Program-made: the position numbers and the translations under genes
The notes under the pieces: model-generated
What the model saw: only the letters and a program-made list of their open reading frames with translations
Databases searched by the model: none
What the model was told of the DNA's origin: nothing
Shown: one piece after another, positions 16,627 to 18,771 of the stretch
Position numbering within the stretch: position 1 is the stretch's first letter
Layout: the number at the start of each line of letters is the position of its first letter
Origin: a virus
Virus record (IMG/VR): IMGVR_UViG_3300020469_000325
Coordinates: 1 to 20,637 of that record
DNA: 20,637 nucleotides
Strand: one strand, 5' to 3'

Positions 16627-17200
16627 TCAATATATTAGGGAGTACTGGGGTGACCCAGAACAATGTGATAAGTTAATACAATTCTATAAGGACGCTACTG
16701 CTGCTAATATGACTAAGGAAGGTCGTGTTGGTAGCATTGATTGTCCAGAGGGTAGACCACAACCCGATAAGAAGAAGAGTACAGAGATGCCCTTCGAGGA
16801 TGTATGGAATGGAGAACTAGGTGATGATGTCTGGGGTCTACGTGACTACATGAACTTCGTGACTGACTGTTACTCAGATTACTGGGAGCACTTCAAGTTG
16901 CCACCACCTATAGGAATCAAAGTACTACCACAGATACAATACTATAGACCTGGTGAAGGGTACTACTTCCCACACATAGATGCCGAAGCAGCAGTGATGA
17001 GCCGTGTCATGGTGTACATAACTTATCTGAATGACGTACCTGATGGTGGTACTATCATGGTCAACAACGATGGGTTTACTATCCACGCAGAGAAAGGTAA
17101 GACAGTCATCTTCCCTGCTACCTTTACTCATAAGCATGTGGGAGAGATATCAAAGACACATGAGAAATATATCTGTACAGGATGGGTAGAATGGCTATAA
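16619..17200 (+). CDS. 2OG-Fe(II) oxygenase (prolyl-hydroxylase-like fold)
   Basis: A 193-residue protein. The C-terminal ~100 residues match the Fe(II)/2OG oxygenase core: LPQIQYYRPGEGYYFPHIDA with the HxD pair H119/D121, VMVYITYLNDVPDGGTIMV, GKTVIFPATFTHKHVG with the distal His (H171), and K183 in HEKYICTGW. Lys at the 2OG-binding position occurs in collagen/HIF-type prolyl hydroxylases, where most families have Arg. The N-terminal half (residues 1-95) carries many charged residues and is not recognised. Substrate unknown; a protein target is plausible. It overlaps both neighbours slightly. Confidence 0.86.
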   Translation: MIDQYIREYWGDPEQCDKLIQFYKDATAANMTKEGRVGSIDCPEGRPQPDKKKSTEMPFEDVWNGELGDDVWGLRDYMNFVTDCYSDYWEHFKLPPPIGIKVLPQIQYYRPGEGYYFPHIDAEAAVMSRVMVYITYLNDVPDGGTIMVNNDGFTIHAEKGKTVIFPATFTHKHVGEISKTHEKYICTGWVEWL

Positions 17201-17598
17201 TATATCAAGATAAAATATGTACTGTCTATAAGACTGAGGTAGTAAAGTACGCACTGCTAGAGTACATATCAGAATATAGTTTGAACTGTAAGAAACCAGT
17301 ACAGATACACTGGTCTAAGTCAGACACAGGTAACCATGCTGTTGTAGCATGTAGTACCAGACGCATAGGTGTGGACATAGAACTGATGAAACCTCGTAGG
17401 TATGAAGCAATCTCTCGTAGATACTTCCGTGAGGTTACAGATGATAAGGAGACATTCTATAACCTCTGGTGTCAGAAGGAAGCGTACACCAAGTGGAAGA
17501 AAGATAAGATAGCACACAACCTAAAGGCAGACATAGACAGGCGTTTGATACCTTTGGAGGGGTTACCGAACGATGTAGTAGGGTACATATGTTACTAA
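17182..17598 (+). CDS. 4'-phosphopantetheinyl transferase-like protein
   Basis: 138 residues from the ATG at 17182 (an ATG at 17191 is an alternative). It matches the Sfp/PPTase core: QIHWSKSDTGNHAVVACS, where family members have the S-x-S-H strand, then RIGVDIELMK with D65 and E67 (Mg2+), then NLWCQKEAYTKW with W96, K99, E100 and K104 (the WxxKEAxxK motif). PPTases transfer the phosphopantetheine arm of coenzyme A to carrier proteins such as ACP. The usual His of the SxSH motif is replaced (IHWSKSDTGNH). The protein is shorter than Sfp (about 220 residues), lacking much of the N-terminal pseudo-repeat. No carrier protein or synthase is seen nearby. Confidence 0.8.
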   Translation: MGRMAIIYQDKICTVYKTEVVKYALLEYISEYSLNCKKPVQIHWSKSDTGNHAVVACSTRRIGVDIELMKPRRYEAISRRYFREVTDDKETFYNLWCQKEAYTKWKKDKIAHNLKADIDRRLIPLEGLPNDVVGYICY

Positions 17599-17611
17599 TG
17601 AACATAAAACC

Positions 17612-17641
17612 TTGACTAAATAGGTGTGCGTATGCTAACAT
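17612..17641 (+). promoter_or_regulatory. Candidate host-sigma70-like promoter with overlapping hairpin
   Basis: TTGACT (17612-17617) and TAACAT (17636-17641) are separated by 18 bases, a fair match to the bacterial -35/-10 consensus, inside the 61-base gap after the PPTase gene. A perfect hairpin, CGTATG-CTAA-CATACG (17629-17644), overlaps the -10 and could be an operator or a weak pause site. It would drive the small gene at 17660, the riboswitch and the peptide genes after it. Confidence 0.42.
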
Positions 17642-17659
17642 ACGTTTACGTTCATCCAA

Positions 17660-17863
17660 ATGATAGAACTCACCCTCCTAGCATCACTCCTCGCTGATCA
17701 CAACACTTCCCATTGGGAAATGTCATGTACAGATTGGAACCAAAACAGAATCGAGATACTTAGCGATAAGAATCTTAACTCTGATGCTCATGAGTATCTT
17801 ATAGATTACTTTAGGAGCAAGGTGTCAGGACAATGTGATGTCTATACTATTGGACGCAAGTAA
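17660..17863 (+). CDS. Small protein of unknown function
   Basis: A 67-residue protein (start ATG at 17660). A hydrophobic N-terminus MIELTLLASLLADH is followed by a polar segment with two Cys and two Trp (WEMSCTDWNQNRIEIL) and an amphipathic helix HEYLIDYFRSKV, ending GQCDVYTIGRK. The N-terminal stretch is too short and charged to be a convincing signal peptide. No ribosome-binding site is obvious. It sits between a candidate promoter and the glutamine riboswitch and ends only a few bases before that RNA begins, so the riboswitch may be partly fed by its transcript. No family recognised. Confidence 0.55.
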   Translation: MIELTLLASLLADHNTSHWEMSCTDWNQNRIEILSDKNLNSDAHEYLIDYFRSKVSGQCDVYTIGRK

Positions 17864-17869
17864 GCCGAC

Positions 17870-17940
17870 TCGGAACGGATCGTTCATCCCTCTGGAAGGG
17901 GGACGCACAAGTTGACTGAAGGAACGGTTTAATCAACCCA
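17870..17940 (+). promoter_or_regulatory. Glutamine-II (Downstream-peptide) riboswitch
   Basis: The sequence CGTTCATCC, a short hairpin, GGACGCACAAGTTGACTGAA and GGAACG matches the Downstream-peptide RNA, a glutamine aptamer known from cyanobacteria and their phages. Supporting pairings are visible: P1 CGTTC (17881-17885) with GAACG (17922-17926), P2 TCCC (17887-17890) with GGGA (17900-17903), and a pseudoknot GTTGA (17911-17915) with TCAAC (17933-17937). A strong AGGAG (17949-17953) follows, 7 bases before the ATG at 17961, as expected for control of translation of a short peptide. A TATACT at 17843-17848 is a possible -10. Glutamine sensing is established for the class but not tested for this copy. 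Confidence 0.8.
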
Positions 17941-17960
17941 ATTCCAACAGGAGAAGCCTC

Positions 17961-18086
17961 ATGGCACAAGTCACTTACAGAGGTGTCAAGTATGACACTA
18001 ACAAAAGCAAGTCAAAGCAATCAAACGTGGTCGAATTAGTTTACCGTGGTGTAAAACTAAACAAAGATCTTACAGTTGCGAAGTAA
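17961..18086 (+). CDS. DUF4278-type peptide under glutamine riboswitch control
   Basis: A 41-residue peptide with the YRGVKYD motif of DUF4278 (MAQVTYRGVKYDTNKSKSK) and a second copy (LVYRGVKLNKD) at the C-terminus. DUF4278 proteins are small cyanobacterial proteins of unknown function. The two YRGVK copies suggest a small beta-hairpin repeat, or pieces of one domain separated by a Lys/Ser linker. It has a strong ribosome-binding site (AGGAG at 17949) and sits directly after the riboswitch, the position for which the Downstream-peptide RNA was named. Its stop overlaps the next start (TAATG). A role in nitrogen metabolism is inferred only from the riboswitch. Confidence 0.8.
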   Translation: MAQVTYRGVKYDTNKSKSKQSNVVELVYRGVKLNKDLTVAK

Positions 18087-18172
18087 TGGAAGTATTAGAA
18101 ATCTGTGCAGCAAGCATAGTTTTCCTTTCAATTATCTACGCTGAGACTTTAATCCTTTATAAGGATGCTTAA
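18086..18172 (+). CDS. 28-residue membrane peptide
   Basis: MEVLEICAASIVFLSIIYAE is followed by a short tail to DA. The centre (ICAASIVFLSIIYAETLILY) is hydrophobic enough for one membrane span, with an acidic N-terminus and a Lys-Asp C-terminus. The ATG shares its A with the stop of the DUF4278-type peptide (TAATG), so it is probably coupled to it and thus also under the riboswitch. A terminator hairpin begins 6 bases after the stop. Its size recalls the small subunits of cyanobacterial photosystem and cytochrome complexes, but I cannot match it to one. It could be a chance open frame, though overlap and position argue for a gene. Confidence 0.55.
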   Translation: MEVLEICAASIVFLSIIYAETLILYKDA

Positions 18173-18177
18173 ATGTG

Positions 18178-18211
18178 TTCCCCGCTACATACAAGTAGTC
18201 GGGGAATTTTT
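18178..18211 (+). terminator. Intrinsic terminator hairpin after the peptide operon
   Basis: TTCCCCG (18178-18184) pairs with CGGGGAA (18200-18206) and CTAC (18185-18188) with GTAG (18195-18198), with one bulged T (18199) and a 6-base loop, followed by TTTTT (18207-18211). This is a good Rho-independent terminator. The GGGG in the 3' arm is also the only ribosome-binding-like element before the ATG at 18213, so the stem could hide it. Confidence 0.75.
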
Positions 18212-18212
18212 A

Positions 18213-18341
18213 ATGCAGACACGTAAACTCAAGCAACTGCTTGAACAACTTGAAGAAGTAATGGCAGAACTTAAACTTGAGGTATACTCAGACGTAGATA
18301 AGTATCGTGATGAAGATGGTTACTATAATGAAGACGAGTGA
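18213..18341 (+). CDS. Small charged helical protein
   Basis: A 42-residue product. The first half is a Leu-rich amphipathic helix (RKLKQLLEQLEEVMAELKLE) with a heptad-like pattern that could dimerise. The second half is acidic and Tyr-rich (YSDVDKYRDEDGYYNEDE). The ATG lies directly after the terminator U-tract. The 3' end overlaps the endonuclease gene by 14 bases. No family recognised. The strong helix periodicity and the tight junction with the next gene support it as a coding region. Confidence 0.55.
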   Translation: MQTRKLKQLLEQLEEVMAELKLEVYSDVDKYRDEDGYYNEDE

Positions 18342-18771
18342 CTATGAAAATCCCTGGTTATATAAAGGTAAACCTTTCACTACTGACGATATTGGCGATC
18401 TCTTCGGTTTCGTCTACCGCATTACAAATATCAGCACGGGCAAGCAGTACATCGGACGTAAATATTTCTGGCAAAAAAGAAAACCCAAAGGTGGAAAGCG
18501 TAGAGTTACTTCTGAATCAGACTGGAAGCGATACTTTGGAAGCTCTGAAGAGCTTAAACGAGACATTAAAGAACTGGGCAGAGAGAATTTCAGAAGAGAA
18601 ATCATCTCAGTCCACAGTACCCTTGGACAAACCAACTACGAAGAAACCAGACAACTCTTCCTCAACAACGTGCTCACAGAACATGTAGATGGCTTGCCAA
18701 AATATTATAATAGTAATATACTAGGTAGATACATGAGGAAAGATTACTTCAGACCAGATGCTGACAACTGA
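18328..18771 (+). CDS. GIY-YIG endonuclease-like protein (SegE-like)
   Basis: 147 residues from the ATG at 18328 (a GTG at 18307 would add 7). GFVYRITNISTGKQYIGRKY holds a GIY-YIG-like pair: FVY (28-30) and YIG (41-43) with R44. It is followed by ESDWKRYFGSSEELKRDIKE and NYEETRQLFLNNVL, where a Glu would complete the active site. Phages commonly carry this family, annotated as SegE-like or putative endonucleases. Some are mobile homing enzymes, while others are resident nucleases. No DNA-binding domain or intron is visible, and the gene sits in a tight operon, so a resident nuclease is likely. The first residue of GIY is replaced by Phe. Confidence 0.77.
   Translation: MKTSDYENPWLYKGKPFTTDDIGDLFGFVYRITNISTGKQYIGRKYFWQKRKPKGGKRRVTSESDWKRYFGSSEELKRDIKELGRENFRREIISVHSTLGQTNYEETRQLFLNNVLTEHVDGLPKYYNSNILGRYMRKDYFRPDADN

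Follow-up and report, generated by a model that had tools for sequence, protein, structure and literature searches.

Which RNA precedes the DUF4278 gene of this phage, and where does its expression unit begin? The window, i.e., the whole stretch of 20,637 nucleotides analysed (IMG/VR record IMGVR_UViG_3300020469_000325), represents part of the genome of a T4-like marine cyanophage, as judged from its nrdA/nrdB and GIY-YIG genes, and its relatives are Prochlorococcus and Synechococcus phages. The original prediction put an independent Downstream-peptide (glutamine-II) aptamer at 17870-17960, at the head of a self-contained unit with two peptide genes and a terminator. A glutamine-riboswitch core is indeed present at 17878-17933 (RF01739, 30.7 bits; RF01704, 28.4 bits; E ~1e-4). 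The proposed check with the Downstream-peptide and glnA covariance models thus gave the core match, but both scores fall below the gathering scores (35 and 33 bits, respectively), and no Rfam family reached its gathering score in the window. The 41-residue peptide at 17961-18086 was confirmed as DUF4278 (PF14105, 27.8 bits against a cut-off of 25.3), and a hairpin with a U run at about 18177-18211 agrees with the terminator. The unit is self-contained in having its own promoter and terminator; its start, however, lies about 230 bases farther upstream than position 17870, with the promoter at 17612-17641 and the aptamer 5' strand at 17649, before a 67-codon gene that had been omitted. The features of the locus, as read from the sequence and its comparison with relatives, are as follows.

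17612-17641, plus strand: sigma-70-like promoter TTGACT-18-TAACAT, assigned by sequence match only; position conserved in 192 distinct relatives
17649-17654, plus strand: outer P1 5' strand, CGUUC(A), pairing with 17922-17926
17655-17659, plus strand: outer P2 5' strand, UCCAA, pairing with UUGGA at 17850-17854, with covariation across the nested ORF
17660-17863, plus strand: nested gene, 67 codons plus stop, phrog_6471, in the outer P2 loop, its UAA in the junction CGCAAGUAA
17850-17862, plus strand: outer P2 3' strand and J2/3, CGCAAGUA, with the E-loop half AGUA at 17859-17862
17863-17870, plus strand: P3 5' strand, AGCCGACU, pairing with 17910-17917
17872-17886, plus strand: inner hairpin GGAACG-GAU-CGUUCA (permuted inner P1)
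17887-17903, plus strand: inner P2, here a short hairpin, in most relatives a whole second gene
17908-17926, plus strand: P3 3' strand, J3/1 GAA (17918-17920) and outer P1 3' strand GGAACG
17914-17953, plus strand: competing hairpin, CUG, GGAA and GGUU with AACC, UUCC and CAG, adjoining the Shine-Dalgarno sequence GGAG (17950-17953)
17961-18086, plus strand: DUF4278 peptide (PF14105), 41 residues
18086-18172, plus strand: membrane peptide, 28 residues, its start overlapping the DUF4278 stop
18177-18211, plus strand: intrinsic terminator hairpin with U run

The half-motifs were first mapped in 22 phage relatives. In nearly all of them, two modules, each of the form CGUUCAUCC ... GGACGCA ... GGAACG, precede the DUF4278 gene, and between CGUUCAUCC and GGACGCA lies either a whole small gene or just a short hairpin. 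In the window, the nested gene starts two bases after CGUUCAUCC and ends within GGACGCAAGUAA. A glnA-type (glutamine-I) aptamer is thus read here as split, with its 5' half at 17649-17659, its 3' half at 17850-17926 and a gene between them. The linkers of the two modules covary (AGUCG/CGACU, AGUCA/UGACU, AGACU/AGUCU, AGCCGACUC/AAAGCCGACU and AGCCGACAC/AAUGCCGACU; 0 of 5000 shuffles were equally good), and therefore the modules are joined by P3. The two halves of the E-loop in the glnA consensus are likewise divided, AGUA lying in module 1 and GAA (RAA) in module 2, and P3 and both halves come together in one three-way junction, as in glutamine-I. A second, rearranged inner core is seen to share P3 with the outer aptamer; its elements, GGAACG-loop-CGUUCA, P2' and CGCA, would sit at the opposite end of the same helix.

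A scan keyed on the join of the modules and blind to loop length, together with the loci already in hand, yielded 244 unique elements, and two later scans for J2/3 variants raised the number to 415, although related phages are not independent of each other. Among the 244, the P2 loops were bimodal in length, the outer being 10-45 or 188-232 nt and the inner 9-25 or 136-190 nt, and no loop was intermediate. Genes occupied only the inner loop in 103 elements, both loops in 95, only the outer loop in 22, the class to which the window belongs, and neither in 24. By this comparison, the split layout is common to hundreds of related viruses. An origin of the double-ended form in the hosts was also considered, and was set aside after a scan of 84,980 genomes gave 9 matches, one of them (L334) equal in length to a phage contig of IMG/VR and several others chance-like.

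The pairings were examined by covariation. Where P2 flanks ORFs, inner pairs 4 and 5 were paired in 100% and 92% of cases versus 83% and 64% after shuffling, and outer pair 3 in 100% versus 87%; the correct register of P2 gave 83-90% pairing, whereas slid registers gave 25-60%. Unguided RNAalifold prediction from 22 unsplit elements returned outer P1, outer P2, the inner GAACG/CGUUC hairpin and inner P2; P3 was missing from this prediction and was added by hand. In the resulting structure, pairing extends to 97.2% of cells, a value that none of 500 shuffles equalled, eight pairs changed on both sides, and slid registers pair at 31-60%. P1 gives no covariation signal because it is invariant and was forced by the search patterns. 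When the whole stretch of the window was folded, P2 formed and outer P1 did not.

The J2/3-P1 base pair bears directly on whether the two modules fold together. In phage DSL-LC03, the outer J2/3 carries G with C after the last GGAACG, and the inner pair is C and G; from this variant, the long-range pairing was tested by the two further scans. The patterns of all these scans, the first included, fixed the J2/3 base and partly the base after the first GGAACG, leaving the long-range partners free. The outer pair joins the J2/3 base that follows CG to the base just 3' of the last GGAACG; it was G-C or C-G in all 415 elements, and the inner long-range pair was C-G or G-C in 403 of them. If the locus instead held two ordinary tandem aptamers, module 1 (17649-17877) and a glutamine-II-type module 2 with a pseudoknot (17881-17938), each folding on itself, the pairs should be local, but pairing within modules was found in only 283 and 286 of the 415 elements (~68%). 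Each module does contain CGUUCA, GACGCA and GGAACG, tandem glnA RNAs are known (PMC2864571), and the pseudoknot GUUGA/UCAAC can form in the window, with L004 and L224 forming GUGGA/UCCAC. However, the linkers covary between the modules, neither module has both E-loop halves, and the long-range fold was the more stable in 24 of 24 unsplit elements. The pseudoknot named in the original prediction is not conserved: it is missing in nearly all relatives, L219 has UCAAC without GUUGA, and the type-2 spacing occurs only in the window, L004 and L224. We regard tandem aptamers as improbable. For the same reasons, the glutamine-II aptamer predicted to stand alone at 17870-17960 was not upheld, because its P3 strand and one E-loop half sit in the upstream module, and the linker covariation and the J2/3-P1 pair point to a glutamine-I topology that reaches 17649.

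The Rfam scores of the window may be read in two ways, since sub-threshold values are expected from a 198-nt P2 loop and equally from a degraded element. Unsplit relatives pass the RF01739 cut-off across both modules (L023, 43.7; L042, 40.3; L033, 39.6 bits), and three relatives score 33-33.2 bits with RF01704. A covariance model built from unsplit relatives only matched 17839-17926 of the window with 68.3 bits (E 6e-16), far above chance, with its 5' strand forced onto the last part of the nested gene; 198 nt of ORF separate the genuine P1 5' strand from this region. The sub-threshold scores, and an invariant P1 as expected of a DNA repeat, would fit a riboswitch that has degenerated and lost its glutamine sensing, leaving only repeats that flank the genes. 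On the other hand, P2, P3 and the J2/3-P1 pair show compensatory changes in hundreds of phages, the core is invariant and the competing hairpin is conserved, which makes this the least credible of the explanations, with a very small probability. Two other observations were made in these searches. Ordinary unsplit glnA riboswitches precede unrelated small phage genes in L027 and L028 (46.2 and 39.4 bits), and a match to NsiR1 at 18157-18213 (20 bits) was rejected as the terminator hairpin.

The outer nested gene is under coding constraint, with a pN/pS of 0.22 (88 distinct sequences). The pN/pS of inner nested genes ranged from 0.27 to 0.88, rough values in that the length-matched groups mix families. 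All 80 loci picked solely by similarity of the nested protein keep the split core: CGUUCA precedes the start codon, GACGCAAGUA is at the stop and RAAGGAACG follows downstream. In sequenced isolates such genes are annotated, an example being P-HM2, with PHM2_179 in the outer loop and PHM2_180 in the inner one. AlphaFold modelled the 67-residue protein as an N-terminal helix followed by a confident helical hairpin; its hydrophobic start and two invariant cysteines, C23 and C59, suggest that the protein is exported. Could such genes be passengers in a permissive P2 loop of a real riboswitch, their translation uncoupled from glutamine? Either loop gains and loses genes in otherwise similar elements (the window and L057 versus L219), and several unrelated families are nested (phrog_504, phrog_13397 and phrog_6471). 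Conversely, the register is fixed, with the start codon joining or abutting P2 and the stop in the junction, and therefore the aptamer must be opened by any ribosome that translates the nested gene. A point against the reading preferred here is that P2 includes the A of the start codon in only 38 of 78 outer cases (130 of 140 inner), and in the window it ends just short of the nested AUG. Glutamine sensing and reading of the inner gene probably compete, and we consider passenger genes unlikely, though with more in their favour than either tandem aptamers or a degenerate element.

The arrangement of signals suggests how a double-ended riboswitch could operate. The promoter ends eight bases 5' of the first CGUUCA, a position kept in relatives, and therefore the RNA should begin at P1, at about 17646-17649, so the nested gene would be preceded by some twelve bases of leader, with no Shine-Dalgarno sequence. 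In most elements a perfect dyad, e.g., GGTCTATAATAGACC, is centred on the -10 box of the promoter and is perhaps an operator. At the other end, CURAAGG 3' of the aptamer can pair with CUUYAG beside the DUF4278 Shine-Dalgarno sequence; the mismatching CUUCA or UUUCA is found 46 times with ACUGAA and never with ACUAAA. An equivalent of the competing hairpin is present in 128 of 130 distinct sequences, the window included, where, with 3 contiguous pairs, the stretch beside the Shine-Dalgarno sequence pairs less strongly than in most relatives, a shortfall compensated by GGAA/UUCC. Separately, at least a dozen elements (L014, L162, L184 and others) carry, between the last GGAACG and the Shine-Dalgarno sequence, an ACGGAUC-hairpin-RAAGGU insert with a variable complementary stem, which had no Rfam gathering match in L014. 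Because the competing hairpin uses J3/1 and the P1 strand, it and the aptamer are mutually exclusive, which would agree with the glutamine activation of host elements (PMC6316151) and suggests that glutamine turns DUF4278 translation on. Without glutamine, the aptamer 3' strand would pair beside the DUF4278 Shine-Dalgarno sequence (OFF), while the short-leader nested gene could be translated. With glutamine, the aptamer would close and free the Shine-Dalgarno sequence for synthesis of DUF4278 and the membrane peptide, and P2 would cover or crowd the start codon of the nested gene. Comparison of relatives supports the split layout, the pairings of P2, P3 and J2/3-P1, the competing hairpin and the coding constraint on the nested gene; glutamine binding, the direction of the switch and the reciprocal control of the nested gene are what we infer. 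Taken with this on/off scheme, a double-ended, gene-nesting member of the glutamine-I class is the reading that we consider likely. A fuller version, in which two back-to-back cores sharing P3 act as a glutamine-dependent translational toggle between the nested genes and the DUF4278-membrane-peptide genes, is more tentative, a possibility to which we give somewhat less than even weight. In such a toggle, two glutamine sites might act together, translation of the nested gene would also unfold the sensor, and the nested products would be small proteins that are probably exported.

The 28-residue frame downstream proved to be real: in 71 of 136 DUF4278 loci a relative is encoded directly downstream, its start codon overlapping or adjoining the DUF4278 stop, and the peptide core (M..xEIxxASxxFLxxIxAExxxLY) has a pN/pS of 0.32. 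The peptides annotated after DUF4278 in S-N03 and S-H34 were considered as its relatives and rejected as a different family. Family searches with the membrane peptide and with the nested proteins gave solely families of unknown function; the prediction that the membrane peptide is undescribed was supported. As for the neighbourhood, a 4'-phosphopantetheinyl transferase superfamily protein is encoded at 17182-17598 (PF01648, 26.3 bits, barely above the cut-off) and a GIY-YIG SegE-like endonuclease at 18340-18771 (PF19835, 182.9 bits), whose orthologues bear the label 'NAD synthetase' in phrog_447 and in the records of many cyanophages. Shortly 3' of the DUF4278 unit, manA RNA (RF01745) was found in L010 (2036-2237) and L134 (900-1101), with 162 and 181 bits.

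Genes in loops of structured RNA have a precedent, as group I introns may carry ORFs in peripheral loops; unlike these, the phage RNA is a riboswitch-like aptamer whose core is touched by the start and stop codons. With glutamine-I (glnA RNA, RF01739) it shares CGUUCA, P2, CG(G/C)AAGUA, P3, GAAGGAACG and the J2/3-P1 base pair, but its P3 bears an inner rearranged second core and its P2 loops hold whole genes. Glutamine-II (Downstream-peptide RNA, RF01704) controls DUF4278 small proteins of marine picocyanobacteria and is activated by glutamine (PMC6316151). The phage element resembles it in the DUF4278 target and the C-G identity of the J2/3-P1 pair, and differs in having no conserved pseudoknot and in forming P3 with the upstream module. 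Glutamine-II matches or look-alikes also precede a tiny peptide, TVTYVYRGIKYTRVIG or similar, in IMG/VR contigs L024, L036, L037 and L040, scoring 45-57 bits in L037 and L040. IF17/gifB, the glutamine-synthetase inactivating factor, has a DUF4278 N-terminus and is under glutamine-riboswitch control (PMC6316151); the C-terminal GS-binding part of IF17 is absent from the 41-residue peptide, which ends after the DUF4278 match and so represents the DUF4278 part alone, which IF17 can spare for inhibition.

Both types of glutamine aptamer, and their association with DUF4278 in marine picocyanobacteria, were already known (PMC2864571, PMC6316151), as were a 99-nt RF01739 match in cyanophage S-CREM1 (PMC9964418), which has the length of the double element, and glnA elements in the marine phages Melnitz, Mosig and AG-345-P14 (PMC9004378), the last being our L004. 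Neither of those two phage reports describes nested genes or the double-ended fold, and we found no description of them in the literature searched, some key primary papers being beyond reach. Cyanophage glutamine riboswitches and the host DUF4278 link are therefore known, and the nested genes and the double-ended fold are apparently new. Because of the nested genes, such loci are missed or broken up by the usual covariance models and gene finders. Riboswitch aptamers are usually seen as compact non-coding sensors, but hundreds of phages, widespread in the ocean, seem to harbour complete genes within theirs, the start and stop codons touching the helices and the junction. If this is true, sensing and translation of the inner gene would depend on each other, and there would be a testable route from host glutamine, that is, nitrogen status, to the expression of phage genes.
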